From the NCBI RefSeq assembly GCF_017114985.1, contig NZ_JABXKP010000022.1, positions 1-64,000 on the forward strand: a DNA stretch of 64,000 nt. Reading direction: 5' to 3'. Source of the DNA: Nostoc sp. JL33 (GTDB taxonomy: Bacteria; Cyanobacteriota; Cyanobacteriia; Cyanobacteriales; Nostocaceae). The position numbers and the translations under genes are program-made. Numbering within the stretch: position 1 is the stretch's first letter; each line of letters starts with the position of its first letter. The notes under the pieces are model-generated. The model was not told the origin of the DNA. It ran no database searches and saw nothing but the letters and a program-made list of their open reading frames with translations. Shown piece after piece: positions 8,396-64,000 of the stretch.

Positions 8396-8490
8396 GCTTG
8401 ATCCACACACATCCCTTAAATTCTCCAAAATTAATCTTGGCTAAAGTTACGGTTTTTAATCAGACCTATTGATTTACTTCTACATCTGAA

Positions 8491-8640
8491 ATGAAACACA
8501 ATAGCAACCTTCATAGTTATTTTAAAGACGTTAAAAGTTTACATCCTGATTTGGTTGAATGCACAAATAAAGATATTCCTAAAGAAATAAATTTAGATTC
8601 TATTAACGCACTCCAGTTACTACCATTTCAAAATTACTAG
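8491..8640 (+). CDS. possible small protein or gene fragment
   Basis: A 49-codon frame from ATG to TAG (MKHNSNLHSYFKDVKSLHPD at its start). It overlaps the 3' end of the P450 gene on the opposite strand by 38 bases. No clear ribosome-binding site and no recognised family. It may be a remnant of a gene replaced when the P450 gene arrived. Confidence 0.25.
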   Translation: MKHNSNLHSYFKDVKSLHPDLVECTNKDIPKEINLDSINALQLLPFQNY

Positions 8641-45635: not shown

Positions 45636-48600
45636 TTATCGTCTAAATCTACTTTGTTTGCTCTCATGGGATTGGGGAATTTCCAACAAGATCATAATCC
45701 GGGCTTTGTCCTCTCTAATTAATTGGCGAACCATATTCATTTTCTGTTCAAAAGTTAAAGATAAGTCAGCTTTACCGACAGGGTAAAATAACTTGTTGAC
45801 TTGATCACCTTTGACTTTTTCACCTTGAGCATATTTCCCTACTTCGATAAATAAATCTGACATTTTTTGTTTATCTAAATGCTGGAGCATCTGCCTTAGA
45901 AGTGACTTTATATTTGTTGTAACTTGTTCCTTTTCTTCGACAGCACCAGCAGTTTTTTGTTTAAGGCACTCCGACAATTTATCAATTATGGCGACTACAT
46001 TGGTGACAATCTTAGTAAATTCACTATTAGCAGGATAAAAGGATAGTTCCTTGATTACAGTTGGTAATGTTTCAGCCAGTGCAGACTCAACAGATGATTG
46101 GTCAACATAATCAACTATCGCATTTATGGCGAGTTGTGATATTTGACGTTGTTCTGATTGAATTAATGCTGTTGTCAGTTTGTCTAATGTAGTTGCTCCA
46201 TTGGTTAAAGAAAGCTGATATTGAGAGAGTTCCTTGATTAGTATTGGTAAATTAACCTCAAGAGACTCAACAGATGACTGCTCAACATAATCAGTAATCG
46301 CATTTACAGCAAGTTGTGAGAGTTGGTGTTTTTCCTGTTCAGCTAGGGCTGATGAAAGTTTGTCTAATGTGATTTTTCCATTGGTTAAATCCTGCTGATA
46401 ATGTGAAAATTCCTGGATTAGAGGTTGCAATGTTTCAGCTAGTGCAACCTCAAGAGACGATTGCTCAACAAAATTAGTAATTGCGTTTACAATTCGCTCA
46501 CTACTTCTATAACTTGTTGTCTGGTCAAGAATTGCTGAATTTTTTCTGTCAGTGTCTCCTGAGATACTCTCTGTTCGCTGATTTGTACCCTGACCGCCTC
46601 CAAAGAAGAGGTTAATTCTTGTAATGTCGTCTCCAAGCTGTTCGACTTCTTGGAGTTCAATGTCTCGGCTAATTGCTGTAAGAAATTCCTCATTTCTTCG
46701 GCTTGGCTCTGTTCTAAATGTAGGATTTTTGCGCTCAATTCCTGACTCAGTTTCTCGTGACTGCTCAACAATTTCTCTATTTTCTCGGTTAACACTACTA
46801 ATTCCTGTGTCGGTTTTGGGTTGTTGTCGGTTGATGTCATCGGTTTGTCCTATAGATTGGTTTTGCTGTAAAGAACGTTGTTCTGGTGTTAACTTTTGAG
46901 GTGGTGAGATCGTGGCAGCACTCTTGTATTGATTCTGGCGTTGCCAGTCTCTTAAATTCATAGCTTGATGACTCAATTTCTCGTAAGCCAGTGGCCCACG
47001 AGCGACTATAAAATCATCGACACCTTTAGAAGGCCCTGGCAAGCTGACGACCTTGACCCTAGCTCCAGCTTTTTGTAATAATCTTCCAGTTACGGAAATA
47101 TCTCGCTCAATATTGAGCTTCGTTTCAGGCTTGGTTTCATAGTCAAAGCAGAATTTGATTTCTCGAGAAGGTGTGGCGAAAACTGCTAACTCTTCATGTA
47201 GGTAAGACTTGCCAATTTTTTTGCCAAACTCATCTTTGGGAGTTCGGTATCCCGCCGAAATCCCAGGTAGACCAATGGCAGCATGACCCTGACTCAACAG
47301 ACTGGCTGCTTTTTTCGCGCCTTCTGCGATCGCACACGGGATATTATGTTTCCAGACACAGTACCAAAATCCTGATTTGCGCTCCTGTTGCGTGGGGTTA
47401 ACTTTGTGTTTGGAGTAGATGCGCTCGGCTATCTCATCGGGGACATTAAGCAGGAAGATGCTTAAATCAACCTTCGGGGGATGCTCATATTTAATGAATT
47501 TCCCTTCAATTATTTGATTATTCTCATCTTTTTTGGGTCTTGGTTGATTTGGCTTGTAGCATCCCCATCGTTTAAGAGTTGGTTTATCACCTGGGGTTAA
47601 ATCAGCGAATGAACGCGCATCAACTCCAGCATCACACCACCATCCTCCAGCATCAAGATGAGAATATGCTCTGATTAATCCCTCCGTTAACCTCCCGGTA
47701 TTTGTACGATTAAGTTTTTCACTAACCATGAGTCTTTCCCAAGACTCATGCTCACCACCTGCATAGTTGAATTGAAGACTCTCAAAGTTTTTTGCCGTAA
47801 TATCAGGATGAATGGCACTTGATTCAAACTCTTGCCAGTGCTTTGGTTCAATAAAATTAGGTATTTTTTCAGTCTGATTGGGTGTCCAGAATGGTTCTGT
47901 GGGGACAGGAGATTTCAGTACTGGCTTAGAGAAAACCGATTCAACAGTATTATAATTTGGTGTCTCTTTCAAGACGGGCAAGACTTTAGAAGCAGGGGTG
48001 CAGGGGTGCAGAGGGGCAGAGGAGAAGTTAAATTTATCCCCGGCATTTGGGTACAACCCCATACTATTGGGGTTTCTCACCTGCTCCCCATCTCCTCTGC
48101 CCCTCTGCTTCTTGTTGACTACAGGAACGAATGTTGATGAATCATGGCTTGTTGTCCGGCTAGATGCAACTGATTTCACAATTGGCTCGACAAAAGGAGT
48201 AGATACTGTCGTCTCTTGTTTTAGTACTGGCTTCTCAAAAGGGGCACTTATATTTATAGTTATTGCTTGCTGCTGCTTGAAAGTCGATTTCTGAATTTGT
48301 TTTCGTAACAATTCCAAAGCATTATCTTTGGCTTTCGACTGTTGCGCTAACCAGAGCAAGCGTGTTGGATCTTCGGTGTAAATCTTTAATTCATGCCTTG
48401 CACGGCTGGCAGCAACATAAAAACTTTCCTGTCCAATAGTGAAATCTGCCGAAATTAACACCCGATCCGCAGTTTTCCCCTGGCTACTATATGTTGTACT
48501 CACAAGGGCATAGTCTAAGTTTTGCGCCTGTGCCAAACTAATGCATTCAGTACGCTCATCAGCATATTTAATCTGGACTATGTTCAGGTCGATCCCTGTT

Positions 48601-50834
48601 ACAGTAAACTCCTGTCCGTTACGTCGTCCCAATTGCCGATCGTTTTTCTTCCATTGCAGGCGATCGCCCACAGCAATTTCAATCTGGTGACTGTGGTAAA
48701 CCGCTTTCTCAAAAGCCGTGTCTACATCCATTACCTGACGATCATCACTAATGAGTGTCAACTTATCAGTAGTTCGACCTACCACTTCATATAATTTGCC
48801 TTTATCCAGCCCCCGGCGTTTGTAATCCCGTGTGGGCATGATCACATCACCAATTTCAAAGTTATGGGCAAACCGCATCTGTACTTTTGTCAGATTTTTG
48901 GTTTGCAATTGGGTGATGGTTGCAGTTTCTCCCAAAGTTCCTTCACCCTTGAGCTTGTCTCGAATCGCTTGGGTAAGGGCAAGTCTTTCTGTATTTGTTC
49001 CAGCTAACACAAGAGTTTTGAGTCGCTGCTCTGGTGTCCCTACTATATAATCATTGGCGATCTGCTCTATTTTGGAAAAACTATCTATAGAAAGTATGGA
49101 ACCGTTGGCTTCTAGTCGTTCAAATCCTGCTTCTATTCTGCCATCAGCGATTAAATCTACTGCCAGCTTCAGTTGAGGGTCTTTTTGGCGCAACGATTCA
49201 TTGAGGTGTGCGGTTTTGATTCCTGCCTGTTGCAACGACTTGAATGGATTACCTGCTGATACTGCTGACAACTGCCGAGTGTCACCTACTAAAACCACCC
49301 TAGCTTGAAGTAAGGTTGCTCGTTGTAGGAGTGCATGAGCATCTTTAGCACTGAGTAAACCCGCTTCGTCCACAATCCAGATTTGATTTGGTTCAATCTC
49401 TGATGGTGGTTCCGAAACCAGTAATCGAGCAACAGTAAGAGACTGAATTTTTAACTCTTCGCTTAAAACCTTAGCAGCAGAGGAACTAGGAGCAAAGCCA
49501 ATAATAGTGTATCCGGCATCCCTTGCGATCGCTTTGAGTTCTTTAAGAGCAAAAGTTTTCCCAGCACCAGCTACCCCCTGCCATGCAATGAACTGGTCAG
49601 ATGTTGTTGCAGCTAATTCTACCGCTTGGCGCTGTCCAATATTGAGCAAGCTTTTCTCCAACAGACTTTCAACTACTTCTCTATTAGTTATTGGGACTAC
49701 TTTTCCAAGACCCTGCTGCATCAACTCAATCGTCGCCAACTCCCGCCGCACTGCTGTCATCGTCGTAAATTGGTGAGTCAACCCTGGCAAAGCGATTAAC
49801 TCCTGATGTTCTCTAATCAGGGCTGCTGTTGCTGTTACATCCGTAGCTAAACGTGACTCTAGGATGAATTTTTCTAAGTCCTCTTGTCTAAAGGCGACAT
49901 TTCTCTCACTGCAATGTGCGATCGCTAAATCCAAAACCTCTGCCAAACTTTTCTCATTGGCTGGTATATCCTGCCTTGTAAAAGAAGGCTTAACAAACCT
50001 AATCCCTAACGCCGCAGCTTCTGACTTCCAGAATGCAAGTAACTCTGATTCTGGTAGTTTTTGCTTGCGCTGGCGGGTATCATCCCAAATTTTTTCACGT
50101 TCTGCCCAAGTAGAATTAGGACCCGATGAAGCGATGATTTGTTGTCGTCGCTTAGAAAATGTTTCTAAATCCTGTTCCTTAAACCCTTTGATATCAAATT
50201 GCCCATGTTTAAGGGGTTCTATTTCATACCCTAGTTTCTGCACCTCACGCGCCAGATAACTTTGATACGCCATTCCCAAGAATTTCTTGTTGGCGAATAT
50301 CTCATTATTGCCCAGGCTCAACCATCTACCATCTGGGGTTTGAGTCATATTCATCAGCAAACAGTGTGTGTGCAGATGTGGGTCTAAGTCTCGGCTTTCG
50401 ATGTGGTCAAACTGAGCGACGACAAAGTTACCAGTTTTAACTCTATGTCTGTTGTTATCATCGGTCACTCTGGTATAGGCATAACGTTCTTCCATCAGTT
50501 TTATTACTTCAAATAATGCCTGATGGTGAGCATCGATTAAACGTGTATCCCCACCTACCAATGCCATCAAGCTCACACTTTTGGGGGCAGAGAATGTACA
50601 GTCTAATGCGGCTCTCTTCGTTTTTGGTTTGACTGCCCTGGCATTTAACTGCTCATGACCATCAGGCGATCGCCCCTCAATGATATTTTTAAAAGCATCT
50701 TCATCATCGATTGCCCCTGACAAACCCAACTTTTCAGCACCTTGACCACTCCAAAGCGACTTCCCTTGATGATAGTAATTCTTGACGAAGTAGTTCACCG
50801 CCATTTCAGAGGACACGTTAGCCGCTGTTAGCAT
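45636..50834 (-). CDS. MobF relaxase-helicase fused to DUF3854 Toprim-like module
   Basis: A 1732-residue conjugative relaxase. Residues 1-300: TrwC/TraI-type relaxase with Tyr pairs near the start (Y15, Y20, Y21) and the three-His metal site in DLDPHLHTHCLLMN (153-157). About 390-880: RecD-like helicase (GVAGAGKT at about 415-425; IWIVDEAGLLS; VLVGDTRQLSAVSAG; STTYSSQGKTADRV; VAASRARHEL). About 880-985: linker with an in-frame palindromic repeat. About 985-1300: DUF3854 Toprim-like module (SSAIHPDITAKNFESL; CAIAEGAKKAASLLSQGHAA; IKFCFDYETKPET; GPSKGVDDFIV), the same domain as in CyRepA1 proteins. About 1445-1605: three imperfect 60-residue repeats starting NAITNFVEQSS / NAITDYVEQSS / NAIVDYVDQSS. 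It would nick oriT, unwind DNA and perhaps prime synthesis. Confidence 0.92.
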   Translation of the reverse strand: MLTAANVSSEMAVNYFVKNYYHQGKSLWSGQGAEKLGLSGAIDDEDAFKNIIEGRSPDGHEQLNARAVKPKTKRAALDCTFSAPKSVSLMALVGGDTRLIDAHHQALFEVIKLMEERYAYTRVTDDNNRHRVKTGNFVVAQFDHIESRDLDPHLHTHCLLMNMTQTPDGRWLSLGNNEIFANKKFLGMAYQSYLAREVQKLGYEIEPLKHGQFDIKGFKEQDLETFSKRRQQIIASSGPNSTWAEREKIWDDTRQRKQKLPESELLAFWKSEAAALGIRFVKPSFTRQDIPANEKSLAEVLDLAIAHCSERNVAFRQEDLEKFILESRLATDVTATAALIREHQELIALPGLTHQFTTMTAVRRELATIELMQQGLGKVVPITNREVVESLLEKSLLNIGQRQAVELAATTSDQFIAWQGVAGAGKTFALKELKAIARDAGYTIIGFAPSSSAAKVLSEELKIQSLTVARLLVSEPPSEIEPNQIWIVDEAGLLSAKDAHALLQRATLLQARVVLVGDTRQLSAVSAGNPFKSLQQAGIKTAHLNESLRQKDPQLKLAVDLIADGRIEAGFERLEANGSILSIDSFSKIEQIANDYIVGTPEQRLKTLVLAGTNTERLALTQAIRDKLKGEGTLGETATITQLQTKNLTKVQMRFAHNFEIGDVIMPTRDYKRRGLDKGKLYEVVGRTTDKLTLISDDRQVMDVDTAFEKAVYHSHQIEIAVGDRLQWKKNDRQLGRRNGQEFTVTGIDLNIVQIKYADERTECISLAQAQNLDYALVSTTYSSQGKTADRVLISADFTIGQESFYVAASRARHELKIYTEDPTRLLWLAQQSKAKDNALELLRKQIQKSTFKQQQAITINISAPFEKPVLKQETTVSTPFVEPIVKSVASSRTTSHDSSTFVPVVNKKQRGRGDGEQVRNPNSMGLYPNAGDKFNFSSAPLHPCTPASKVLPVLKETPNYNTVESVFSKPVLKSPVPTEPFWTPNQTEKIPNFIEPKHWQEFESSAIHPDITAKNFESLQFNYAGGEHESWERLMVSEKLNRTNTGRLTEGLIRAYSHLDAGGWWCDAGVDARSFADLTPGDKPTLKRWGCYKPNQPRPKKDENNQIIEGKFIKYEHPPKVDLSIFLLNVPDEIAERIYSKHKVNPTQQERKSGFWYCVWKHNIPCAIAEGAKKAASLLSQGHAAIGLPGISAGYRTPKDEFGKKIGKSYLHEELAVFATPSREIKFCFDYETKPETKLNIERDISVTGRLLQKAGARVKVVSLPGPSKGVDDFIVARGPLAYEKLSHQAMNLRDWQRQNQYKSAATISPPQKLTPEQRSLQQNQSIGQTDDINRQQPKTDTGISSVNRENREIVEQSRETESGIERKNPTFRTEPSRRNEEFLTAISRDIELQEVEQLGDDITRINLFFGGGQGTNQRTESISGDTDRKNSAILDQTTSYRSSERIVNAITNFVEQSSLEVALAETLQPLIQEFSHYQQDLTNGKITLDKLSSALAEQEKHQLSQLAVNAITDYVEQSSVESLEVNLPILIKELSQYQLSLTNGATTLDKLTTALIQSEQRQISQLAINAIVDYVDQSSVESALAETLPTVIKELSFYPANSEFTKIVTNVVAIIDKLSECLKQKTAGAVEEKEQVTTNIKSLLRQMLQHLDKQKMSDLFIEVGKYAQGEKVKGDQVNKLFYPVGKADLSLTFEQKMNMVRQLIREDKARIMILLEIPQSHESKQSRFRR
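46487..46840 (-). CDS. possible nested coiled-coil gene in a second frame of the relaxase gene
   Basis: A 117-codon frame from ATG lies wholly inside the relaxase gene in another frame. Its product (VVLTEKIEKLLSSHEKLSQE; LEQSQAEEMRNFLQQLAETL) is an orderly heptad coiled coil, more protein-like than the charged, low-complexity relaxase reading of the same bases. AGGA lies about 8 bases before the ATG. Either both frames are used, or an old separate gene was fused into the relaxase frame. Chance is not excluded. Confidence 0.35.
   Translation of the reverse strand: MTSTDNNPKPTQELVVLTEKIEKLLSSHEKLSQELSAKILHLEQSQAEEMRNFLQQLAETLNSKKSNSLETTLQELTSSLEAVRVQISEQRVSQETLTEKIQQFLTRQQVIEVVSEL
48008..48109. 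repeat. palindromic cyanobacterial repeat inserted in frame in the relaxase gene
   Basis: GCAGAGGGGCAGAGGAG (48008-48024) and CTCCTCTGCCCCTCTGC (48093-48109) are perfect 17-bp inverted repeats; inside is AACCCCA-TACTAT-TGGGGTT. The left side is preceded by a second GCAGGGGT repeat. The type is common between genes in Nostoc, but here it keeps the reading frame and adds about 40 residues to a linker. Confidence 0.85.
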
Positions 50835-51571
50835 GGCTCACCTCGAAAAAGGAGTTTACAAAAGTTAATCCTTTTTCTATTCCATCTGTTGGTACTACCT
50901 ACTCTCGTCAAGAAATTCTGATTATTTTCTCTGTTGGCAAGATAATCACCTTTGCAATAAGTATTGAAGTGAAAATCAATCACCGTCATCAAACTTAGTG
51001 GTGCTTGATGGCGACTGAAAAGATTTGCGTGATTCTTTGACTTCAACTTTTTTCCCAAATGGGTAATTGATATTTAATATAGCAAAAAACTACAGCATTA
51101 TTTCCGCCAAATATGGCGTACTGTGCGTCAGAAAAAGATGGATTCTAAGGCTTCTGGTTATTTCAGCTAATTACTAGATAATTGGGAGAATCCTTGAAAA
51201 GATTGGGAAGTGTTGGGAAGTACTAGGAAGTCTTGGGAAGTCTTAGGAATTGTTGGAAAATATTAAGCTAATGAGAATTTGGTGACTAGATGATGTTGAA
51301 TAGTTGAAAAGGTAAGAAATGAATGGGAGATTTGATAGATATTGTCTAGATATTGGGAGAGATTGAATGTAATTGGTGAAAATTGGGAATTTGGAGATTT
51401 TGTGGAGATTTTCTCTCAGATGCATGAATTCATGAAAAGTCAAAAATTAGTACCAAAACTGTAATGTTTCTTGATAAACATGTCAATAATCACGGTTTGA
51501 GGGGTTAATACTGAGAGTACTTATCAATTAGATAGACAAAAAAAGGGTCAAAAACAGGGAGAAATTTTCTT
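50835..51571. other. relaxase-parM intergenic region, likely oriT and promoters
   Basis: The divergent promoters of the relaxase (minus) and parM (plus) genes must lie here, and conjugative origins are usually next to the relaxase gene. CGCCA-AATA-TGGCG (51105-51118) is a small inverted repeat that could belong to oriT; this is inference. Iterons follow at 51201. A 76-codon minus-strand frame at 50828-51058 (MGKKLKSKNHANLFSRHQAP at its start) overlaps the relaxase start by 7 bases and is possible but unsupported. Confidence 0.45.
51201..51260. repeat. six 10-bp iterons, candidate centromere (parC-like)
   Basis: Six consecutive 10-mers in helical phase: gattgggaag, tgttgggaag, tactaggaag, tcttgggaag, tcttaggaat, tgttggaaaa. 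ATTGGGA elements recur at 51350-51395. They lie about 310 bases upstream of a ParM-like and a ParR-like gene. Known ParMRC systems have 10-12-bp iterons upstream of parM that ParR binds, so this is the likely centromere. Confidence 0.75.
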
Positions 51572-52687
51572 GTGGATTTAATGTTGAGTCTTGATCCGGG
51601 AACTTCAATGACGAAGATGGTTTATCGTGTTCTCTCGGAGATTTCGTACAAGTCAGAATTGCTGTGTATGGAACCAGAGTTAATTAAGATTTCCAAAGAT
51701 TCGCTGGATTTATATGAGTCTGGGCAAATGAATCGGCCCAATCCAGAGAATGAAGCGTGGATAGAGTACAACGAAGAATATTATGCGGTTGGGTTTTTGG
51801 CACAAAAGTATTTTGAAGCGCGAATCAATTTTTTAGAACTCAAGTATGAGAACGCGATTCCAAAAACTTTGGCAGCAGTGGGGGCAATAGCGATTAGAGA
51901 TTCTTTGAAGGCAAACTTTGATTTATCATTGGGACTGCTATTGCCTTACGGGGAGTGGGAAGATAGAGAGAGATTAGAGAGGGGTTTAACTAAGGCACTG
52001 TCTAGTTTTAGCTTTCGAGGGAAACAATTTTGTATAAATCTGATTAACTTTCAGTGCTTGCCCGAAGGTGGTGGACTGATATTGACGCGAAGTAAAAAAC
52101 TTGGCACAGATTTTAATAAAATGAACATTGCTGTGGTGATGCTGGGTTTTCGGGATATATCAGCCGTAATCTTTGAGCGTGGTATCTCAACTGGAAAAAC
52201 GGAAGGATTGGGCTTGGCGTGGATGCTGGAGAGAATCAAAAGCCGAACATCAGGGCAAAACTTACATGATCTGTTAAAGGCTGTTCATCTATCAGGCCCG
52301 ACATTGAAACCGAGATACTGCAAACCTTTGGCTCGGAGCAAGAAGTCTGATTTTAAGGTTGAGGAAATAGCACAAATTATTGAAGTGGCTGACTTATCTC
52401 GTAAAGAATACTGGGAAAGGGTATCCACTTGGCTCAAAATTAATATTCCTGCCCATATTGAGCAAGTCATTATTGGTGGTGGAACGTCGGAATATTTAGG
52501 CTCGGAGTTGAAAAATTTGTTTACTCATACCGACATTTCATGGGCAGCAGAATTATCAGAGGATGTGCGTTTAGCTTTTAACCTACCGATTAAAAAAGAT
52601 GCCTTGTGCTTGCGTTTCACTGATGTATATGGATTGTTTCGTTACCAACACGCTATGTCATCCATTTCAAAGCATTGTGCTTCTTAA
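51572..52687 (+). CDS. parM: ParM/StbA-like actin-fold partition ATPase
   Basis: A 371-residue actin-like protein. The phosphate-1 loop is SLDPGTSMTK at about residues 6-15, and phosphate-2 is seen in IAVVMLGFRDISAVIFE (about 190-205). The adenosine loop is VIIGGGTSEYLG near 300. An AIRDSL and LSLGLLLPYGEW segment matches the usual Alp/ParM core. It should polymerise with ATP and push plasmid copies apart. I use the GTG at 51572, with AGGGAGA upstream; an ATG follows three codons later. It forms an operon with the ParR-like gene, 16 bases downstream, and has 10-bp iterons upstream. Confidence 0.82.
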   Translation: MDLMLSLDPGTSMTKMVYRVLSEISYKSELLCMEPELIKISKDSLDLYESGQMNRPNPENEAWIEYNEEYYAVGFLAQKYFEARINFLELKYENAIPKTLAAVGAIAIRDSLKANFDLSLGLLLPYGEWEDRERLERGLTKALSSFSFRGKQFCINLINFQCLPEGGGLILTRSKKLGTDFNKMNIAVVMLGFRDISAVIFERGISTGKTEGLGLAWMLERIKSRTSGQNLHDLLKAVHLSGPTLKPRYCKPLARSKKSDFKVEEIAQIIEVADLSRKEYWERVSTWLKINIPAHIEQVIIGGGTSEYLGSELKNLFTHTDISWAAELSEDVRLAFNLPIKKDALCLRFTDVYGLFRYQHAMSSISKHCAS

Positions 52688-52703: not shown

Positions 52704-53138
52704 ATGTTTTCAGATGTTGAGTTTCGCTTACGAAGTAGAGTTAAGGCTGATAGTTCCGAAGCCGTGGTAATTAAGTATCTAAACTCTAGGGACACTCTTT
52801 ATCCTGCTAGGGATATGGCGATGATTGCGATTAGCAGCTATTGGTTGCCTTTAGCTTATCAAGCTGTGGATCAATCTGTGGATTTAGAGCAACACATTCG
52901 TGGTTGTCTTTACCGCCTTCAACTACACTCTTCATATCTGATGGGACTGCTGGGAGAAATCCCCTCTCAGGGAACGCCGATGATTGCAGTAGCCTCTAAT
53001 CAATCACAACCACTACAACTAATACAATCAGAACCATTACAAATAGCCAGGACTTCAGCCAAAGAACCATTACAAATAAGCAGAACTCCCGTACCAGAAG
53101 AATTGGAGTCGGAAACTGACTGGTTAAATCCGTTTTAA
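52704..53138 (+). CDS. ParR-like centromere-binding adaptor
   Basis: A 144-residue protein directly after the ParM-like gene, with AAGGA before the ATG. The N-terminal half (about 1-70, RLRSRVKADSSEAVVIKYLN; MIAISSYWLPLAYQAVD) is helical and may be a ribbon-helix-helix DNA-binding fold. The C-terminal half is a flexible Gln/Pro-rich tail with repeated PLQI-type elements and the end DWLNPF, suited to contact the ParM filament end. Assignment is by gene order, size and layout, not by sequence identity. Confidence 0.7.
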   Translation: MFSDVEFRLRSRVKADSSEAVVIKYLNSRDTLYPARDMAMIAISSYWLPLAYQAVDQSVDLEQHIRGCLYRLQLHSSYLMGLLGEIPSQGTPMIAVASNQSQPLQLIQSEPLQIARTSAKEPLQISRTPVPEELESETDWLNPF

Positions 53139-53238: not shown

Positions 53239-54096
53239 ATGATTATGTATCAACCACAAGAACTTTTCAACAACCTCTCACCATCAGAAATTAGCCGGAC
53301 TTTACGCTTGAGTGGGATACCTGAAAAAGAGTTGTATACCGAGAATGATGCAGACAGGTTTCGTGAGTGTCGCACCTTAATTGAGCAGGGTGGAAATGAT
53401 GAGGAAGTAATGGCTCTATTATCTCCAGTTGTTGACAATGCACTGTCAGAAACTCAGGGCAATTCCTCGTCGTCAACGAAGAATGGGGGGAAAAAACAAG
53501 GGAAGAAAGCCCAATTACCATTAGACATCACTGAATTACTAGTTATTGCTCGTGAAAGAGGCTATAAAATCGCACTTTCTCAGGCTTTAATAATTCTTCA
53601 AGTCTGCGGACTATCTGAGCAAGATGAGTATAGCCCAGATGAGTGCGAGCGCTTTCTTGAAACCTACAAATCAATAAAAGAGCAAAACAAATCCTTTGAA
53701 GAAGTTGCATCTGAGTTAGCTGCTCTGAATGAGTCTGGGATTTCTCAGCAACTAAAATTAGATGCAGTGATTGAGAATGTTAGTGAAAAAGCTGTAGCTG
53801 CCAGAGATGAATTATCTAATCTTATTAATAGGATTACTGCCGCCGAAGCTGAAGAAATAACTGACTTAGTTCAATCACTTTACCTGAAAAATGTCGCATT
53901 GAAATTGCAACAGAGCGATTCGGGAAATAATCTGTTTGCTCAATTAGAAGAAAGAATCATGGCTCGAATCGCCCAAAAAAAGCAACAGAGGGCACAGTCA
54001 TCTGGAATGACTTGGGAGACGACACCCTTATTGCCTTCTTCGCCAATGCCGATGCTGTCGCCCAACGTATCCAAGAATGGAATGAATACCGATTAA
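53239..54096 (+). CDS. helical plasmid protein, zero-frame product of a candidate -1 frameshift
   Basis: A 285-residue protein with AGGAG before the ATG. It has two related segments of about 55 residues that start RTLRLSGIPEKELYTENDAD and ALIILQVCGLSEQDEYSPDE, each followed by a Glu-rich helix, so it contains an internal repeat. The residues after about 248 (SSGMTWETTPLLPSSPMPML) are Pro-rich and out of character, while the -1 frame gives a coherent helical and membrane protein. At codons 247-248 the sequence is A AAA AAG, a classic slippery site. Family not recognised. It may share a transcript with parM/parR. Confidence 0.65.
   Translation: MIMYQPQELFNNLSPSEISRTLRLSGIPEKELYTENDADRFRECRTLIEQGGNDEEVMALLSPVVDNALSETQGNSSSSTKNGGKKQGKKAQLPLDITELLVIARERGYKIALSQALIILQVCGLSEQDEYSPDECERFLETYKSIKEQNKSFEEVASELAALNESGISQQLKLDAVIENVSEKAVAARDELSNLINRITAAEAEEITDLVQSLYLKNVALKLQQSDSGNNLFAQLEERIMARIAQKKQQRAQSSGMTWETTPLLPSSPMPMLSPNVSKNGMNTD
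53975..53982 (+). promoter_or_regulatory. A AAA AAG slippery heptamer
   Basis: In the 53239 frame the codons CAA AAA AAG form the slippery sequence known from E. coli dnaX. A -1 shift leads to GCA ACA GAG ... ATC TGG AAT GAC TTG, which is the frame of the next gene. The other explanation is a natural or sequencing loss of one A. Confidence 0.55.
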
Positions 54097-54996: not shown

Positions 54997-55203
54997 TCAG
55001 CAATCTCTAAAATCTTTCAAGTCAACGGAGTAAAAAGGCAGTTTATAAATATTTATTTTCATACCCAAGGTGAGGCGATCGCTTTCTTTCACATATTCAA
55101 GTAAAATCACTGTATTTGATGGATAAAAACTTTCTTTACAGCGTAACTCACCTACTTTAATAAGAGGTGTACTTGTCGAAAGGCAAACTGTCTTCCGGCT
55201 CAA
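54997..55203 (-). CDS. possible small protein
   Basis: A 68-codon frame that starts inside the end of the gene at 55157 (47-base overlap). The product (TPLIKVGELRCKESFYPSNT; SDRLTLGMKINIYKLPFY) reads like a beta-rich small domain, but no ribosome-binding site is evident and it may be chance. Confidence 0.35.
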   Translation of the reverse strand: MSRKTVCLSTSTPLIKVGELRCKESFYPSNTVILLEYVKESDRLTLGMKINIYKLPFYSVDLKDFRDC

Positions 55204-55687
55204 AGTTACGCAGGTCTTGCTCCATCATCTGACGACGTTGGACGTATGTTCTGCTATCTTCAATCCTTCGTCTCATCTGCCATGCACCAAAATTAATACC
55301 CTTTTCTGCGTATTTAGCAGACACTTTGTTGTAATCATCAACCTCAATTTTCTTGCGCCACTCAAGCTGTTCCAGCGCACTTTCACTGATGCCAATTTTC
55401 TGAGCATATTCTACATATTCAGGTCTGAGAGAACCATCTGGGTTAAATTCCTTTTTTTCTTGTTCAGTGAAGAAATCGTAGGCTGTGTAGATTGGCCACG
55501 GCTCTGGATCATTCTCATCCAGGTGCTTCCACTCGTCATACTCTTCTTTTGCTCGTAGAGCATAACTATCAATTGCTCCTGGATGTGCGCCTTTAGATAA
55601 CTTTTGTTGTCTTACTTCATTTTTTAAAGTTCCATCTGCATTGAATTCTTTCTTATGCATATTTATCCAACGCTTAATTCTCGACAT
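55157..55687 (-). CDS. hypothetical charged protein with repeated KKEFNxDG motif
   Basis: A 176-residue hydrophilic protein. The motif KKEFNADGTLKNE near the N-terminus recurs as KKEFNPDGSLRPEYVE near residue 80, each followed by Gln/Lys and an ISESALE- or AIDSYAL-like helix, so two related units are present. The C-terminal part is basic (MRRRIEDSRTYVQRRQMM). No family recognised. It is divergent from the large polymerase-like gene at 55735; the 47-base gap must hold both promoters. Confidence 0.6.
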   Translation of the reverse strand: MSRIKRWINMHKKEFNADGTLKNEVRQQKLSKGAHPGAIDSYALRAKEEYDEWKHLDENDPEPWPIYTAYDFFTEQEKKEFNPDGSLRPEYVEYAQKIGISESALEQLEWRKKIEVDDYNKVSAKYAEKGINFGAWQMRRRIEDSRTYVQRRQMMEQDLRNFEPEDSLPFDKYTSY

Positions 55688-55734: not shown

Positions 55735-58700
55735 ATGACTCTGGAAATTAAACATTTTGATCCCAGGCTCAATCAATGGATTTATACAGATGAGCGTAAA
55801 ACTATTTTAACTGAAAAGCTCAGTAATACTTTACTAGAATCATATTTCCCTAACAAAGAGTTTTCATTTGGCCACTCAGATGAATACAGTACCGCCGAAG
55901 AATTAAAGAATCATCCAGATGGACAGATTTTATTGCTCTCTTCTAAGACTCGCTTACTTTATGGAGAAAAGGAATGTTTAGAAACGATTCAAAAAATTTC
56001 TCCAGATAGTAAAGACCGTGGGGCTTACGGTTCCATCTTCCTTGGGGCTTGTAAAAATGCGATTTATGAGAAGCTAAATATTCTGGTAGTAGATGATTCT
56101 ACTGATAACAGGGGTGAAAATGGAGGGATATTATCGAATGATTTGGCATATAAATTAGTTGGTGACTGTTATGGGCAGATTTCAACACAACTTTATGACA
56201 AGCTAACCTTAAGAGAATCACAAATAGATAAAAGCTATCGTGTAATTCAGCATCGATTCGGTTGGGTGGATGGAGTTGGAGAAGATACTACTAAATACCG
56301 TTTTGGCAAAGGAACACTCCGACCATACAGACTAGATAGAATAGAATATGCAGATCCTAAAAATGAACCAAAAATCGATATAATTCTTCCTGTAAGCAGT
56401 TTTAAAGGAACAGACAAGGATAGACCCGAAGGCCCTACTAAACCGCAGATTCAACCAGGATTATATCAGCAAAATATTTGGTTAGCTGAAAAAGGACAAT
56501 CTCAACAAGGACAGATGTCTATCTCCCAACTGCTGGCATCTTTCTCCCAAGGAATTAAAGATTTTTCTGAGGAACTAGAGGTACAAGCTCAAAGATTAGC
56601 CTCTATTCAAGATGACCCTAGAAATGTTGCTGCTTACTATTGTGAAAGATACGAAAAACGTAAAGAATCATTGAGCCAAAATAAATTAAAAACATCAAAA
56701 ACTATTAATCAAGAAACAGATGTTAAAAACTTAGGGACAAATGATGACTTAGATGTAGATCAGGACTTGGATGACGAGAGTACTAAAGATGACTTGTTCA
56801 TGTACAAACTCATTAAAGCCGATTTACTTGGGCATCAGCAGTTATTAGAAACTGAGAAGGTCAAACAGGAATTAAGTCGGTTTGTACAAAGTGAGTGGCG
56901 AGATATTGCTATTGGGAAAACGCTTACTTTTGACCGAGGGATGATTATTCCATCCAAGGAACTCAAAAATGGTGAAATTTGTGTATCTTGGCTTGATGAG
57001 CAAGAAAAAATTCTTAACTTCCGTTCTCCTTTCCTCAACTCTAATGGTTTGTGTGTTTCTAATAATAAATATGTTGAGGATCAGCTAGGGCCAGATGGTG
57101 AACCCTTAGAAGGCATAATTGTAGTCAATGACGAAGACCACAAGCGCATACAGCAAAGAATCACAGAGTTAGAAGCACGAGGAATCAATGCTGATTTTAT
57201 CGACCCAGCAGAAACCGAATCAGAACGCCAAGCACGAGACTACGATGGTGACTGCATTGGTGTAGCAAAAGCCAGCTTATACCCTAATCTGACAGCAGAG
57301 GCAGAGCGAAGAAATCTTCCCCAAAACGCCTATTCGCCCACAGTTAAGCTCAAAAAACAATCATTTTATGATCCCACCGATGGAAGCCAGCCTCCATTTG
57401 AAAGAATCGCTATCCACATGAGTGATAGCATCAGCGTGGGCATAATCAACAATCAAGTTACTGCACTGGAAGCATTAGAATCAGAAATTGAGGTACTAAA
57501 CACTTATGGGACTTTAGAACAAAAATCAGAATATTTAGAGCAAGTATCTAGCCACTATCAAAGTTTATTTGAACAGGAATATGACGAGAAGCCTAAACCA
57601 ATTAGAGCAGAGTACAAACCCTTTATGCAATCTGTTGTAGCTCTAGCAGAGAATCCCAACAGAACTCCAGAGATTATTCAGCAGGCGATGGATGTTAACC
57701 GCCTGATGTACCGAGAAATGATTGGTGAGGGGTGTTATCAGAATCAAATAGCGGTGGATTTATTCAAAAGTGCAAAAAAACCTGAAATGGATTTAATCAG
57801 GGAAAACAGCCGCTACTTATATCGTGATGTTAATTATATTAAAGATAAGAAATCTTCGTCAGTTTATTTAAACACGGGGATAACACCAAAGGGCTACTCA
57901 CCAGTAGAATTATTGATTAGCCAAACTAATAAATATTTCCAGCAATCACAGTTAGAATCGCGCCCCATCGTCCAGTTTAAAGACTTATTCAAAGGAGTAG
58001 AATTTACACCACAGCAAAAACTTGCAGCGATCGCCGCCAAGTACGAGTTTGATCGGAAATTCAACGCTGCGGTTCGGATGTCCCAACGGCGTGAAACTGA
58101 GAAAGGGCCATCTGCAATTATCCAAACTCCACAGGGGGCGCAACTCGAAATTACCAACCTCACCCGCTACGGGCATCCCCTAATCTGGAAAGCCCAGACG
58201 TTGAATATTCGCTTAGATGAAATTTTAGAGAAATTCAGAAGTTTTGAACGCCCTCATAAATTATTAGCAGTCGCACAAATTAATAGCGAGGTTGGGGAAG
58301 ATGGAAAACCCGCTTACCGCAACCTGGGGACAGTTAGCCAACAATCTGTGACTGACCACAACCTCAAGGCGGGGATGACCATGCAGGGAGGTAAAGTAAT
58401 AGAACTAAAACCAGAACTTGCTAGAAGCCAAACTAAACTACTCTTTGCCTTGGCGCAGGAGACGGCAGAAGCATTTTACGCTTCAATACCAGAGTCGGAA
58501 AAACTTGCATCCGCAGCAGCCACTTGGAACATCTGTGCATCCCGCCAGGATGAACTCGAAGTTGCAAGAAAAGAAAACGCAAACCCCCAGGCAATCGCCA
58601 AAAAAGTTTCCAATTTTACTTTCGCTGCTTTCCCCAATGAGATTATTTCTCGGTTAGATAAGTTGCAATTTACTGAACCGAAGTTAGTCACACTGAATAA

Positions 58701-60525
58701 TGAAGCGAATCAATTTTTGGGTCGAGACTGGAACAAGCATGATTTGCACCCGATAGAAATTAGGGCTAGCCACCACCCAGTCGGACATGAACGCCACGTT
58801 TCCAGACTAATGTTTGTACAGGATAGTGACGGCGAATATAAGGAATTCGCCATGCTTGAAACCAGAACCGCACAGCTTCCTATTGGTACGAAAGCGCTCT
58901 CTTGTATGGTTGGGGTAGAACCTGCTACTGCCAAAGCAACTATTGGGCTGCTAGGAAACGAGCCGGTTGAAATTACTATCCGTGAACTCAAGAACTTCTC
59001 TTATGTAGGACTTGTTTTTAACGCCGAACCCCTAAACTTAGAATTTGGCACTGTGCCGGTGACTGACAAAACAGTAAAAATCAAACTTGATGGCAAAACT
59101 TTGGGTGAGTTAGACAGTGATTCTACCCAACAGTTAAAACAAATTGATTACTTGAAAAATGGTAATCCTCTAAAATTAAAACTCACGTCAATCTCTGAAA
59201 CTGGAGATCAAGCTTTTGTGTTGGGTGAGTCTCCCAATGGTCATCTCCTGAAAATTAATAAAATTAACTTTTATGATTTTTCTGGTCAGACATTCAATGA
59301 TCAAGATTACCGAAAACTGACTATCGAAACCTCAGCTTCTAAAACTAGAGATGCTGTATTTTTAAATGGTGAGCCACTGGGAGTATTACATTTTAAAAAA
59401 GACAAAGACGCGCTCAGACAGCTTGGACTACTCAAAACCGGACAACTTACACACGCCGACGCTATTATTGAAAGTAATTTTTCTGTGATTTGCGCTCAAA
59501 TTGACCCTAAGACCGTTGAATATCCCCAGAAATGGACGAAAGAATTCCAAGTTTTTGAGACTCAATCAGTGAACCCTCAACAGCTGTATATGATTGATAG
59601 TAGTGCGAAAATTCTACATCATATTAAAGAGCGGACTACTTTCTTATTTTCTACAGAATCAAACAAAAAACTTGGAGTCATGGGCTTGGCTGTTGACAAC
59701 CAGAAAGCTGAGACTGTAACTAAATGGTTAACTGCTCAAAAAGTTGAATGGGAGCAAGTACCAATAGAAGATGTTATCAGGGAAACTAAAAAAGGTCTAG
59801 CGGTATTTAACTTGGTTGATAGCTCCATCCCTGCCAAAACTTTGTCGAGCATGACCAAGAAATTTGGGGCTGTGATTGAATCTACTCTTGAGTATCAGCA
59901 AAAAGTTAGCTCCCTTGCCACACGACCGCAGTTTTTGAAACCACCAGAACAAACAGCACAATCCCCACCTAACCAATCTATAACTCCATTACTCTCCACT
60001 ACTCCTTCTACACCAGACATTAGTAATAGTGTGAAAACCGAACCTCTAAGTGTAGAGAAGCTCCCGACAATCACTATTGATGACTTGAGAAATTGGTATA
60101 ATGCCGCAGATAAGTTAGGGAAGTCGGAAAATTACAAAAAACGCATTGTAGAAGTGGCTAATGGGTTTAAAGCTGGTGAGCAATTATCAGCCGAAGCGTT
60201 GGCAGTAATGAATAAAGATACATTTGAGCTTGAAAGAATCAGTCGGCTGACTCAAATTGCTCAAAGGATTGGCATGGTCTGGGGTAAGTCTAATGAAAAT
60301 GGCACTCAAGTTTTGGGAAAGATTTATGACTTGGCTTTCAATACCCAACAGAGAGATTTAACTATTTCACAGAAAAATGGGGAGGTAATTTTAAACTTGC
60401 AATCTGGTCAGGTACAGACTAATAAACTAACTCCACAGATATTGCAAACTTTTGAGGATGTTAATACTCAAATTGATAAAATATTAGCTAAATCTATTGG
60501 ACAAGACATGGAAGTACAAAGATAA
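55735..60525 (+). CDS. candidate single-chain double-psi beta-barrel RNA polymerase (RDR/QDE-1/YonO-like)
   Basis: A 1596-residue protein. Several motifs of single-polypeptide RNA polymerases occur in the expected order: NGGILSNDLA at 129-138 (compare DGxGxIS..LA), VIQHRFGW...RFGKGTL with K192 (compare fQxRxxG.KGvl of barrel 1), RSPFLNSNG at 430-438 (compare RNPCLHPGD), DYDGD at 502-506 (the metal-binding DxDGD of barrel 2), SVGIINNQ at about 567-574 (compare IGxISN), and NQIAVDLFKSAKKPEM at 670-685 (compare the AVDFPKSG element). The C-terminal 700 residues hold beta-rich repeats (LDGKTLGELDSDS; LNGEPLGVLHFKK) and end with a module shared with the 44253 protein. It may transcribe the plasmid or make primers. 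No inactivating change is seen. Confidence 0.72.
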   Translation: MTLEIKHFDPRLNQWIYTDERKTILTEKLSNTLLESYFPNKEFSFGHSDEYSTAEELKNHPDGQILLLSSKTRLLYGEKECLETIQKISPDSKDRGAYGSIFLGACKNAIYEKLNILVVDDSTDNRGENGGILSNDLAYKLVGDCYGQISTQLYDKLTLRESQIDKSYRVIQHRFGWVDGVGEDTTKYRFGKGTLRPYRLDRIEYADPKNEPKIDIILPVSSFKGTDKDRPEGPTKPQIQPGLYQQNIWLAEKGQSQQGQMSISQLLASFSQGIKDFSEELEVQAQRLASIQDDPRNVAAYYCERYEKRKESLSQNKLKTSKTINQETDVKNLGTNDDLDVDQDLDDESTKDDLFMYKLIKADLLGHQQLLETEKVKQELSRFVQSEWRDIAIGKTLTFDRGMIIPSKELKNGEICVSWLDEQEKILNFRSPFLNSNGLCVSNNKYVEDQLGPDGEPLEGIIVVNDEDHKRIQQRITELEARGINADFIDPAETESERQARDYDGDCIGVAKASLYPNLTAEAERRNLPQNAYSPTVKLKKQSFYDPTDGSQPPFERIAIHMSDSISVGIINNQVTALEALESEIEVLNTYGTLEQKSEYLEQVSSHYQSLFEQEYDEKPKPIRAEYKPFMQSVVALAENPNRTPEIIQQAMDVNRLMYREMIGEGCYQNQIAVDLFKSAKKPEMDLIRENSRYLYRDVNYIKDKKSSSVYLNTGITPKGYSPVELLISQTNKYFQQSQLESRPIVQFKDLFKGVEFTPQQKLAAIAAKYEFDRKFNAAVRMSQRRETEKGPSAIIQTPQGAQLEITNLTRYGHPLIWKAQTLNIRLDEILEKFRSFERPHKLLAVAQINSEVGEDGKPAYRNLGTVSQQSVTDHNLKAGMTMQGGKVIELKPELARSQTKLLFALAQETAEAFYASIPESEKLASAAATWNICASRQDELEVARKENANPQAIAKKVSNFTFAAFPNEIISRLDKLQFTEPKLVTLNNEANQFLGRDWNKHDLHPIEIRASHHPVGHERHVSRLMFVQDSDGEYKEFAMLETRTAQLPIGTKALSCMVGVEPATAKATIGLLGNEPVEITIRELKNFSYVGLVFNAEPLNLEFGTVPVTDKTVKIKLDGKTLGELDSDSTQQLKQIDYLKNGNPLKLKLTSISETGDQAFVLGESPNGHLLKINKINFYDFSGQTFNDQDYRKLTIETSASKTRDAVFLNGEPLGVLHFKKDKDALRQLGLLKTGQLTHADAIIESNFSVICAQIDPKTVEYPQKWTKEFQVFETQSVNPQQLYMIDSSAKILHHIKERTTFLFSTESNKKLGVMGLAVDNQKAETVTKWLTAQKVEWEQVPIEDVIRETKKGLAVFNLVDSSIPAKTLSSMTKKFGAVIESTLEYQQKVSSLATRPQFLKPPEQTAQSPPNQSITPLLSTTPSTPDISNSVKTEPLSVEKLPTITIDDLRNWYNAADKLGKSENYKKRIVEVANGFKAGEQLSAEALAVMNKDTFELERISRLTQIAQRIGMVWGKSNENGTQVLGKIYDLAFNTQQRDLTISQKNGEVILNLQSGQVQTNKLTPQILQTFEDVNTQIDKILAKSIGQDMEVQR

Positions 60526-60588: not shown

Positions 60589-63500
60589 CTAACCAAGAAT
60601 ATCAATCACAGCAGCTAGGATTGATGCCGCTTTTTCGTTAGCTGGAATAAACACCCGCTTGCGCCATTGAATAATTTCGGTAAAGCAACCAACAGCCACA
60701 ACCCTGTCAGCCAACGATAAAGCATTGACCAATTCAATCCGCCGCTCATTTGCAACCAATGAACTTCGCAACGTTACACCTCCAGGTAACTGTTCTGAAT
60801 AACGCTCATTCAGCACCAGTGAAACAAGTTCTGCTGGACTTAATAGCTTATTCTTCAATTGCAATTGTTCAGCAACAGCACGAATATTCTCCGCACTGAT
60901 TACACGACCTAGTACTTTCTCTCCATTACTTAATTGAAGTCGAAATACTCGGCTGCTCTGCTGTGGTAGAGTTTTCCAAATCGGTAGAAGAATGCCAGTT
61001 ACAAGGTGAATGTAGTCAGTGGTGAATTTGGGTAATTCATCCACTTCTTTTGACCAAGCTGCAACAAATTCGCGTGTTGAAACCTGCTTCCATTCAGAGG
61101 CTTGTAACTTGTCTTGTGGTACGCGAGTTTCCTTCTGTGGACGAACGAGTAAAACCCGTGGTACTACTCCACCTTCGGCATCAAAGATACTGTGAGTGGG
61201 AATGCAAACTGCGGCACTACCAGACTTGGAATTTACCATCAACCGCCCTTGATAGTTCGTGGCAAATTCAACCGCTTCAGCAGCAGTTTTGATGTCGGTC
61301 TTTTGGACACGCTCTATCTTCAAGTAGTTAGTCACGCTACCAGTACCTCTATGAGTATAAACAGACTCAATGCTGGCAACAGTGAACCGTTCTGCCCGAA
61401 GTGTTTCTACCCCAACCTCAAAAATCCCATTCGCTTTCGCTGTCTCGATCTGTTGACTTAGCAGCAACTCGAACCGCTCGAAAATGAGATTCTGCATTCT
61501 AATTCTTAAAGCCAGCAGACGATTGAGAAACTGCCGCAAAGGTGGTAAGTCAATTTTCATCCCGCCTTCAGTGGAAGTCAGCGATAACCCAGTCATTTCC
61601 TCAAATGTCCCTAAAGGAACTTCAGCAAACCTACCTTGGAAAATCTGCTTGAACAATTCATACAAAGCATATTCAGCATAGTTCGATTCCAAATTATCCG
61701 ATTCATTGAATATACCGTTGCCGCCCGTTTGCCTTTGTCCACGGGTAAGTGCGCCGAGACTATCCAATCTTCGAGCGATTGTGGAAATGAACCGACGTTC
61801 ACCTCTAACATTTGTAGTTACAGGTCGAAACACTGGTGCAGATGCTTGATTTGTACGGTGAGAGCGTCCAAGTCCTTGTATGGCGTTGTCTGCCCTCCAA
61901 CCAGCTTCTAGAAGGTAGTGCGATCGCCGTCTGCGATTCACAGCATTTAGATCAGCGTGATAACTGCGACCAGTACCGCCTGCATCACTGAAAATGAGGA
62001 TTTGTTTATCTCCCGCCATAAATGCGTTTGTTTCCGCAATATTCGCACCATTACCTCTGGAATCCACAAACAGCCGCCCTGCTTCATCTTTTAGGACTCG
62101 TTTGCTGCGACCAGTCACTTCAGCTACATTCTTGCTACCAAAATGCCAAAGCAATTGCTCTAAAGCTCCGGGGATAGGGTTAAGACTTGCAAGTTTGTCT
62201 ACCAATGCATCTCGTAACAAGAGTGCTGCTTGTGAAATAATGGGCGAACCATCAGCACCAAAAGCTGGTTCGGAGCGTTCTTCACCTTCAGAGGATGAAT
62301 GAATCTCATGGAGATGAATCGGAAAAGCACTCATCAAATAATCCATGACATATTCCCGTGGAGTTAGGTCAAGGTTCAAGTCTTTCCACTCCTCTGTCGG
62401 AATACCATACAGTTTTCGCTTCAGTAGTTCGGAGTTAGTCGAAACTATTTGGACGACAACAGCATGACCTTGCGCGATATCCTGCTCAATGGCTTTAATC
62501 AGTTTCGGGCATTTCATCCCAGTCAGCAAATGGTTAAAAAATCGTTGTTTGTGGGATTCAAACTGTGACATCGCGGACATTTTAGCCATACGGTTGTATG
62601 TTTTCGCGCCGGAGATGTTACACGCCTCCAATGCTTTGTGTAAATTATTATGAATAATTTGAAAAGCGTCGGCGTAACTATCGTAGATTCTTGACTGGGT
62701 AGGAGTTAAGTCAATCTCCAATGTGTCATATTCAACTCCCTCAAAGGAAAGCGATCGCGCCAAATACAAACCAAGTGCTTTCAAATCTCTGGCTACAACT
62801 TCCATTGCAGCAATACCACCCACTTGAATGGATTCCACAAAGTCTTCACCAGATGTAAACGGGAAGTCGCCAGTATGCCAAAGTCCCAGGCGATTAGCGT
62901 ATGACAAGTTAGAAACCTTCGTCGCTCCAGTCGCTGACACGTAGACAACCCGTGCTGAGGGCAATGCGTTTTGTAGCCGTAGCCCAACGATACCCTGGAT
63001 GGATGCTTTGACCATGCCCAGTTTACCCTCTTGTGCCATCGCGTTGCCCATTGCGTGGCATTCATCAAAGGCGATCGCTCCCTCAAAGTCTTTACCTGCC
63101 CATTCAATGATTTGTTTGAGTCGGCTTTTATCGCCTTTTTCTGATCTTAAGGTAGAGTATGTAGCAAAGAGAACACCTTTGGAAAAGGGGATTGAATCAC
63201 TTAGTTTGATATTACCCAGATCGATGATGTCTTTTTCACTACCACCCAAAGCACACCAATCACGTCGCGCATCCTCAATTAGTGCAGAACTTTTGGAAAT
63301 CCAGATGGCTTTTCGTCGCCCCTGACACCAATTGTCTAAAACGATACCAGCGACTTGTCTACCTTTACCCGCACCTGTCCCATCCCCCAAGAACCACCCG
63401 CGTCTAAACCTCACAGCGCTTTGCTCACTGTTCGCCGCCACCGTCACGTTATCAAGGGAATCATCCACCAAGTAGGAACCAGACAGGAATTCTGAGTGCG

Positions 63501-64000
63501 CCTGTCCTGCGTAAACCACGCTTTCAAGCTGTGCTTCAGATAACAATCCTTGTGCAGCAATATAGTCCGGTAGATGCGGCACATATGTGGGTGCTGGTGG
63601 AGAGATTAACGCCAGTGCTGCGCTTTCGCACAACAGTGAGGGATGAGGTAAAGCATTTTTGATTTTTAAGCGTTGTGGGCGATAGCTTTCATAAAGCACA
63701 TCTTTTAGCCCTTCGGTTGCAGTCCACTCAACAACCTCATAATCTATTGGAGCAACATCTAGAAATTGGGATATTGCTTGAGTATCTGGTATAAAGTGGC
63801 TTTGTTTTGGTTTAACAACACTCAGAGCAACTGCTTTTGACGTTGGAATTTGAGCAGTACTAGTGGAAGGTTGCCATACTGGTCTAGTTGGCAGTTGCTC
63901 AATCAACTTCAGCAGTTCAACAAGCTCCACTGTATGCGGTATACAAGCAATATCAGTGGGATCAACAGCCGGGACTTTATCAATCACGGTAATTCGTGTA
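60589..64000 (-). CDS. strawberry-notch-type SF2 helicase, partial at window end
   Basis: At least 1136 codons of a DEAD-like helicase of the strawberry-notch family. The N-terminal part in the window has YRPQRLKIKNALPHPSLLCE, typical of the region before the motor. Helicase motifs: GDGTGAGKGRQVAGIV (Walker A variant of this family), ATYSTLRS, GAIAFDECHAMGN (motif II), VYVSATGATKVSN (motif III), ILIFSDAGGTGRSYHADLNA and GWRADNAIQGLGRSHRTNQ (motif VI). The frame is open past a GTG at 63987 to the last base of the window, so the true start is outside. Bacterial relatives often carry an N-terminal DNA methylase domain; this cannot be seen here. It is convergent with the polymerase-like gene. Confidence 0.9.
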   Translation of the reverse strand, partial: TRITVIDKVPAVDPTDIACIPHTVELVELLKLIEQLPTRPVWQPSTSTAQIPTSKAVALSVVKPKQSHFIPDTQAISQFLDVAPIDYEVVEWTATEGLKDVLYESYRPQRLKIKNALPHPSLLCESAALALISPPAPTYVPHLPDYIAAQGLLSEAQLESVVYAGQAHSEFLSGSYLVDDSLDNVTVAANSEQSAVRFRRGWFLGDGTGAGKGRQVAGIVLDNWCQGRRKAIWISKSSALIEDARRDWCALGGSEKDIIDLGNIKLSDSIPFSKGVLFATYSTLRSEKGDKSRLKQIIEWAGKDFEGAIAFDECHAMGNAMAQEGKLGMVKASIQGIVGLRLQNALPSARVVYVSATGATKVSNLSYANRLGLWHTGDFPFTSGEDFVESIQVGGIAAMEVVARDLKALGLYLARSLSFEGVEYDTLEIDLTPTQSRIYDSYADAFQIIHNNLHKALEACNISGAKTYNRMAKMSAMSQFESHKQRFFNHLLTGMKCPKLIKAIEQDIAQGHAVVVQIVSTNSELLKRKLYGIPTEEWKDLNLDLTPREYVMDYLMSAFPIHLHEIHSSSEGEERSEPAFGADGSPIISQAALLLRDALVDKLASLNPIPGALEQLLWHFGSKNVAEVTGRSKRVLKDEAGRLFVDSRGNGANIAETNAFMAGDKQILIFSDAGGTGRSYHADLNAVNRRRRSHYLLEAGWRADNAIQGLGRSHRTNQASAPVFRPVTTNVRGERRFISTIARRLDSLGALTRGQRQTGGNGIFNESDNLESNYAEYALYELFKQIFQGRFAEVPLGTFEEMTGLSLTSTEGGMKIDLPPLRQFLNRLLALRIRMQNLIFERFELLLSQQIETAKANGIFEVGVETLRAERFTVASIESVYTHRGTGSVTNYLKIERVQKTDIKTAAEAVEFATNYQGRLMVNSKSGSAAVCIPTHSIFDAEGGVVPRVLLVRPQKETRVPQDKLQASEWKQVSTREFVAAWSKEVDELPKFTTDYIHLVTGILLPIWKTLPQQSSRVFRLQLSNGEKVLGRVISAENIRAVAEQLQLKNKLLSPAELVSLVLNERYSEQLPGGVTLRSSLVANERRIELVNALSLADRVVAVGCFTEIIQWRKRVFIPANEKAASILAAVIDILG

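Follow-up and report, generated by a model that had tools for sequence, protein, structure and literature searches.

A candidate single-chain two-barrel RNA polymerase gene beside relaxase and partition genes on cyanobacterial plasmids

What kind of enzyme is encoded by a large open reading frame (ORF) that lies beside transfer and partition genes, and on what template would it act? To our knowledge, the characterised single-chain two-barrel polymerases are either phage enzymes or eukaryotic RNAi enzymes. We analyzed a stretch of 64,000 nucleotides (the window: bases 1-64000 of one contig in a genome of 7.1 Mb and 106 contigs), for which the initial annotation had proposed a single-chain RNA polymerase with a long tail, carried by a conjugative plasmid. 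The gene and its parts were located as follows.

55735..60525, + strand: single-chain two-barrel (QDE-1/YonO-type) RNA polymerase gene, one ATG-TAA ORF of 1596 aa
55735..58668, + strand: polymerase core, residues 1-978, the span matched by the RDR2, QDE-1 and gp64 structures
56308..56310, + strand: K192 in the KGTL motif, candidate lysine of barrel B and presumed equivalent of the catalytic lysine, invariant in 63/63 rows
57022..57030, + strand: R430-S431-P432 (RSP motif), from the alignment and the YonO profile comparison
57238..57252, + strand: DYDGD 502-506, candidate metal-binding triad, from the alignment, the YonO profile comparison and the motif count
57439..57453, + strand: G569-N573 (GIINN), part of a long helix that follows the DxDGD barrel (residues 567-591 of the model)
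57751..57774, + strand: AVDLFKSA 673-680 with D675 and K678, from the alignment and the YonO profile comparison
58669..60522, + strand: tail varying among lineages, residues 979-1596; insertion slot near residues 1415-1440

All motifs on which the proposal had been based were found at their residue numbers, namely NGGILS (129-134), HRFGW (173-177), FGKGTL (190-195, including K192), RSPFLNSNG (430-438), DYDGD (502-506), VGIINN (568-573) and AVDLFKSAKKPEM (673-685). From the amino-acid composition of the protein, the expected number of DxDGD motifs was 0.017. When the window protein was aligned with 62 relatives, hand-picked from 240 among the matches listed, K192, R430/S431/P432, D502, D504, G505, D506, G569, Q671, A673, D675 and K678 were invariant in the 63 rows. 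In a broader 21-row alignment (A3), which extended down to 19% identity, D502, D504, G505, G569 and K678 were invariant, and K192, D506 and D675 were each conserved in at least 90% of rows; two rows (L053 and L056) were fragments lacking the K192 region. Thus, the homologues conserve the DxDGD aspartates (63/63 rows, and 20/21 in A3), and the sole A3 row that did not carry all three was L056, which has DTDGG.

The structure model of the window protein was of the single-chain two-barrel RNA polymerase type, with two double-psi beta-barrels in one chain, as had been predicted from the motifs. Together, this fold and the conserved aspartates support the reading as a single-chain RNA polymerase. 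In a Foldseek search of the PDB, all 13 matches at E<=0.001 were RNAi-polymerase entries. The TM-scores normalised to the model were low (0.27-0.37), and close superposition is therefore limited to part of the chain; matches to known polymerases stopped near residue 978. A multisubunit cellular RNA polymerase, in which the barrels lie on separate beta and beta' chains, was rejected because both motif sets occur in one chain. Among the matches listed, the large subunits of multisubunit enzymes aligned only with approximately residues 346-734.

Sequence searches with the window protein alone were largely silent. Pfam yielded no relevant family (best DExH14_plug, E 0.074) and no match to RdRP (PF05183), PHROGs nothing useful (best E 0.13) with no direct match to the YonO family phrog_8308 at E<=1, NCBIfam no match, and PDB sequences nothing relevant, also when the profiles A3 and A7 (five members) were used. 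Searches of the window's own genome with PF05183 and phrog_4291 found no match; control genomes were silent with PF05183 as well, and that search is hence uninformative. Two relatives, L041 (26.0 bits) and L045 (24.7 bits), exceeded the Pfam RdRP cut-off of 23.8, with matches spanning profile positions 379-539 of 582, and seven other relatives from the same scan missed it. L041 also matched phrog_8308 at E 0.0044.

The likeness to YonO of phage SPbeta, which the initial annotation had suggested, was borne out by profile comparison. When A3 was compared with a four-member YonO profile, the match had a probability of 95.6 (P 1.1e-8) and a score of 82.1, versus at most 22.2 for the reversed and 60 column-shuffled controls, and RSP, DxDGD, G..N and D..K were in register. 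The comparison of A7 with YonO was weak (probability 15.5, P 0.0017). That of the N-terminal half was weak also (probability 25, P 7.6e-4, score 33.3, with the best of 60 shuffles at 22.1), and the two KG motifs were left unpaired.

With QDE-1 and RDR2 (PF05183), the window polymerase shares the single chain, the fold match over residues 1-978 and DxDGD; the KG and Q-R motifs presumably follow the same order in these enzymes. It differs from them in that it has no PF05183 match, is encoded on a bacterial plasmid and carries a tail of about 620 residues without structural matches. The RNA polymerases of P23-45-type phages (gp64/gp62, non-virion, and gp96, virion) were only 10-15% identical to the window protein. 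These are described as phage transcription enzymes in the part of PMC10770324 available, where single-chain RNA polymerases of phages and plasmids are placed in one clade with QDE-1.

The long tail that had been proposed is present; its length is about 620 residues, not 700, given that the structural matches extend over residues 1-978. Among full-length relatives with this tail, lengths ranged from about 1,570 to more than 3,200 aa, the extra length coming from insertions around residues 1415-1440. The structure model of residues 1116-1596 was poor, and a Pfam scan of nine inserts or tails returned no match. In three relatives (L026, L062 and L109), the inserts in the tail slot comprised about 770 to 1,670 residues, again with no match in Pfam.

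The polymerase gene is maintained under selection: dN/dS was 0.131-0.190 against six relatives and 0.089 against one distant relative for which dS was saturated. Further, the dN/dS of the core was below that of the tail in 7/7 comparisons.

We then surveyed the distribution of the family. At E<=0.001, 350 of 7991 scored candidates were detected by phmmer and 253 of 7997 by a profile search. The closest named homologues, among the matches listed, were from Nostoc. The full-length query found relatives in 33/59 genomes near its own, and the relative L023, used as query, matched in 31/292 genomes drawn from the phylum. A scan of genome contigs identified 171 loci encoding a relative, and 80/80 among the matches listed had cyanobacterial titles. 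Some relatives lay on chromosome-sized contigs (L081 and L084). A relative was encoded in 78 of 72,556 plasmid records, 44 of which covered at least 80% of the query; 36 of the 78 were typed as conjugative, 15 as mobilizable and 27 as non-mobilizable. The conjugative setting that had been claimed was supported by a plasmid that was typed as conjugative and encodes a full-length relative, and by the 36 of 78 records so typed. Further, several plasmids of one strain each carried a copy (five records in Nostoc C052 and three in ATCC 53789).

Some source names, 'Ribonuclease HI' (P0023 and P0103) and 'ribonuclease H' (L022), were not adopted; among the scanned family members, Pfam RNase_H gave one sub-threshold match (P0239) and none in the window protein. 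A viral origin of the window gene itself was likewise rejected, as no relative of its protein was found in the phage records of INPHARED or in IMG/VR.

The genes on the 5' side of the polymerase were as follows.

45636..50834, - strand: MobF/TrwC relaxase-helicase with a DUF3854 domain (Pfam scan)
50984..51013: inverted repeat of the candidate oriT, 9-nt arms, 89% complementary
51106..51128, + strand: candidate oriT core of 23 bp, 22 positions invariant and one A/T, between the relaxase and the ParM-like gene
51572..52687, + strand: ParM-like (actin-like) partition gene (ALP_N E 8.9e-5, below the Pfam cut-off; phmmer neighbours)
52704..53138, + strand: small gene after the ParM-like gene, relatives in 6/80 loci, 4 with a MobF relaxase
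53239..54096, + strand: gene of 285 aa, relatives in 9/80 loci, 8 with a MobF relaxase
55157..55687, - strand: small divergent ORF of 176 aa, separated by 47 bp from the start of the polymerase gene; such ORFs occur at 64/80 loci

Thus, the order in the window was MobF relaxase (-), ParM-like gene (+), two small genes (+), more ORFs, divergent ORF (-) and polymerase (+). The plasmid setting was supported by the MobF/TrwC relaxase with DUF3854 and by a TraG/HerA-like P-loop protein with weak scores. A Strawberry-notch-type helicase gene (AAA_34 and Helicase_C_4; 60589-63987, - strand) is convergent with the polymerase; homologues were found downstream in only 5/46 loci.

To survey the neighbourhood, we inspected eight annotated plasmid regions, including 12 kb on either side, and ran phmmer on the ORFs of 80 genome loci. 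Upstream counts were restricted to the 52 loci whose upstream flank reached 7 kb or more (8 kb maximum), leaving out 28 loci with shorter flanks. Relaxase genes were present upstream in 37 of the 52 loci, ParM-like genes in 39, both in 35, neither in 11 and a divergent ORF in 46, whereas relaxase genes occurred downstream in none and ParM-like genes in two of the 46 loci with 7 kb on that side. These counts do not represent independent events, since the query genes came from the same plasmid group and several loci from one strain. In L092 and L093, which have short upstream flanks, the polymerase ORFs themselves matched MOBP_b; these matches were treated as spurious, and the two loci entered no count. 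Among the eight annotated regions, a SigA-family gene was located about 11 kb downstream in one (L058).

The divergent ORF (window 55157-55687, L022-L024, L058-L063, L065 and L079-L157) was separated from the polymerase by 31-49 bp in 42 of the 64 loci having it. It was of at least three sequence types, of about 176 aa (53 loci), about 64 aa (11 loci) and 117 aa (L022 and L065). Its dN/dS was 0.191 against L058, and two other comparisons were saturated.

To relate the polymerase to the relaxases, we built a FastTree phylogeny of 83 polymerases, considered without branch support and after dropping five of the 80 loci because their ORFs were short. Relaxase labels were available for 46 tips (MOBV 24, MOBF 11 and MOBP 11), and the class changed at least 11 times on the tree, whereas 500 shuffles required 19.2 changes on average and never fewer than 13. 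Therefore, relaxase class partly tracks the tree, yet has been repeatedly exchanged beside the polymerase. We think that the polymerase is part of the plasmid backbone.

The inverted repeat region and the 23-bp core were common to 9/9 aligned MOBF loci. The exact core was present in 10/11 MOBF loci and absent from L058, a MobF locus with the polymerase. There were 22 exact core matches, in 8 of 34 genomes, versus none in the backward-read control. All eight core sites that shared a contig with a polymerase were on the polymerase strand, with the polymerase 4.2-6.4 kb further 3'. No polymerase was detected on the contigs of the other 14 of the 22 cores, some of which belong to a genome of about 10 contigs. 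In the same genomes, the core was missing from 15 contigs that matched the polymerase strongly and from three that matched it weakly. The core and the polymerase are therefore not obligate partners. We take the 23-bp core to resemble the nic region of R388; if this resemblance holds, the polymerase side would enter the recipient first, and by this analogy the polymerase gene may enter with the leading region. The relaxase gene lies on the opposite side of the candidate core, and on the opposite strand, from the polymerase. As described in the accessible text of a 2024 Nature paper (PMC11541004), the relaxase typically belongs to the lagging region, and expression of some leading-region genes precedes conversion of the strand to duplex.

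That the polymerase adjoins transfer and partition machinery suggests that the means of RNA synthesis travel with some plasmids. Our preferred reading, held tentatively, is that the protein is a DNA-dependent two-barrel RNA polymerase of the QDE-1/RDR/YonO class that makes RNA on single-stranded plasmid DNA. DYDGD of barrel A would bind the catalytic magnesium, K192 of barrel B would face it, and the protein is probably catalytic. The template, presumably DNA rather than RNA and preferentially single-stranded, would be the strand entering a new cell or the strand displaced in replication. The RNA product may serve as primers for complementary-strand synthesis and/or as the earliest transcripts, at a stage when the host polymerase still lacks a double-stranded template; from this we infer a transcriptase or primer-maker role, as the initial annotation had supposed.

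Single-stranded DNA is favoured as template because of the plasmid setting and two published lines of work, each taken from the available part of its source: QDE-1 makes RNA on single-stranded, not double-stranded DNA, with internal initiation (PMC2950127), and for F-type plasmids the host RNA polymerase is proposed to act on Frpo hairpins, yielding primers and early expression (PMC7690428). The job proposed here, RNA synthesis on incoming single strands, is that of plasmid primases and Frpo promoters in the latter source; Frpo promoters differ in using the host RNA polymerase. The primases of conjugative plasmids are primase-fold proteins. One relative (P0230) is a fusion with DUF3854, the domain also present in the window's relaxase, which fits the priming readings. 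Also in favour of the preferred reading are the fold, the profile match to YonO, the Pfam RdRP matches of L041 and L045, the low dN/dS, the relaxase and ParM-like genes upstream, the copies on several plasmids of single strains and the constant orientation of the oriT-like core. Against the single-strand proposal are the 11 of 52 loci with neither gene upstream, the chromosome-sized contigs, the low Foldseek TM-scores, the weak A7-YonO comparison, the lack of the exact core in L058, the cores and polymerases that occur on separate contigs, and the absence of relevant Pfam, NCBIfam, PHROG or PDB sequence matches for the window protein.

A fuller scheme is rather doubtful as a whole. On cyanobacterial conjugative plasmids, an RNAi-polymerase-like enzyme encoded in the first-entering DNA would make promoter-free RNA on the incoming strand without the host RNA polymerase, starting complementary-strand synthesis and first expression, and the variable tail and the divergent protein would direct or regulate it. 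The divergent small gene may accordingly encode a regulator or loading partner, and the tail may have a role in polymerase function.

A plasmid-specific transcriptase on double-stranded DNA, which like YonO would act at own-plasmid promoters on a set of plasmid genes, is rather unlikely. The profile relation to YonO, described as a DNA-dependent RNA polymerase in the part of PMC5467207 available, and the repeated presence of the gene on different plasmids within one strain argue for it. YonO and the window polymerase share the four in-register motifs and residence on a bacterial mobile element; the window polymerase, however, is nearly twice as long and is encoded on plasmids beside relaxase and partition genes.

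Less probable is a primase or replication polymerase for vegetative plasmid replication rather than transfer. Across changes of relaxase class, the polymerase stays close to ParM-like genes, P0230 with its DUF3854 fusion is named DNA primase by JGI, and another relative (P0184) is a fusion with DUF3991, but relatives also lie on chromosome-sized contigs.

An RNA-dependent RNA polymerase, whose double-stranded RNA product might serve regulation, defence or counter-defence, for instance, is improbable. It would account for the exclusively RNAi-polymerase entries in the Foldseek search and for the Pfam RdRP matches of two relatives. However, QDE-1 itself is reported to be far more active on single-stranded DNA (PMC2950127, as far as available). 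Further, no product in the eight annotated regions, where most products are hypothetical, was named Argonaute, Dicer or RNase III, although DEAD/DEAH-box helicases occur, and an RNAi-like system was thus rejected; this sets these loci apart from QDE-1/RDR2. Finally, a scaffold protein that kept the fold and lost catalysis, as the large variable tail might suggest, is very hard to reconcile with the invariance of the candidate catalytic residues in 63 rows and the low dN/dS.

A backbone copy that conjugative and mobilizable plasmids keep across relaxase classes would provide them with RNA synthesis of their own, and would make it testable how a plasmid that has reached a new host starts RNA on single-stranded DNA. 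A large bacterial family, of which two members reach the eukaryotic RdRP model, also provides material on the origin of RNAi polymerases. A 2017 paper, in the part available, notes YonO-like proteins in cyanobacteria, and a review of jumbo phages (PMC7824862) names polymerases of the superfamily from killer plasmids and mobile elements. A literature search that combined this polymerase class with conjugative plasmids found no paper. Further searches, which covered titles and the starts of abstracts among the matches listed and had subscription papers outside their scope, returned none on a cyanobacterial plasmid polymerase.

A shorter cyanobacterial branch of about 880 aa was homologous to the window family by HMM and matched phrog_34895. 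It differs in lacking the long tail and in occurring partly in viral contigs (6 IMG/VR loci). In IMG/VR contigs L074-L078, a polymerase relative of about 805 aa was followed by a same-strand ORF of 1861-1967 aa, which in L074 had no PHROG match and sub-threshold Pfam matches only. In the Pseudanabaena plasmid ABRG53a (L027), a second, divergent polymerase-like ORF (7828-9309) was located about 1.7 kb downstream of the first.
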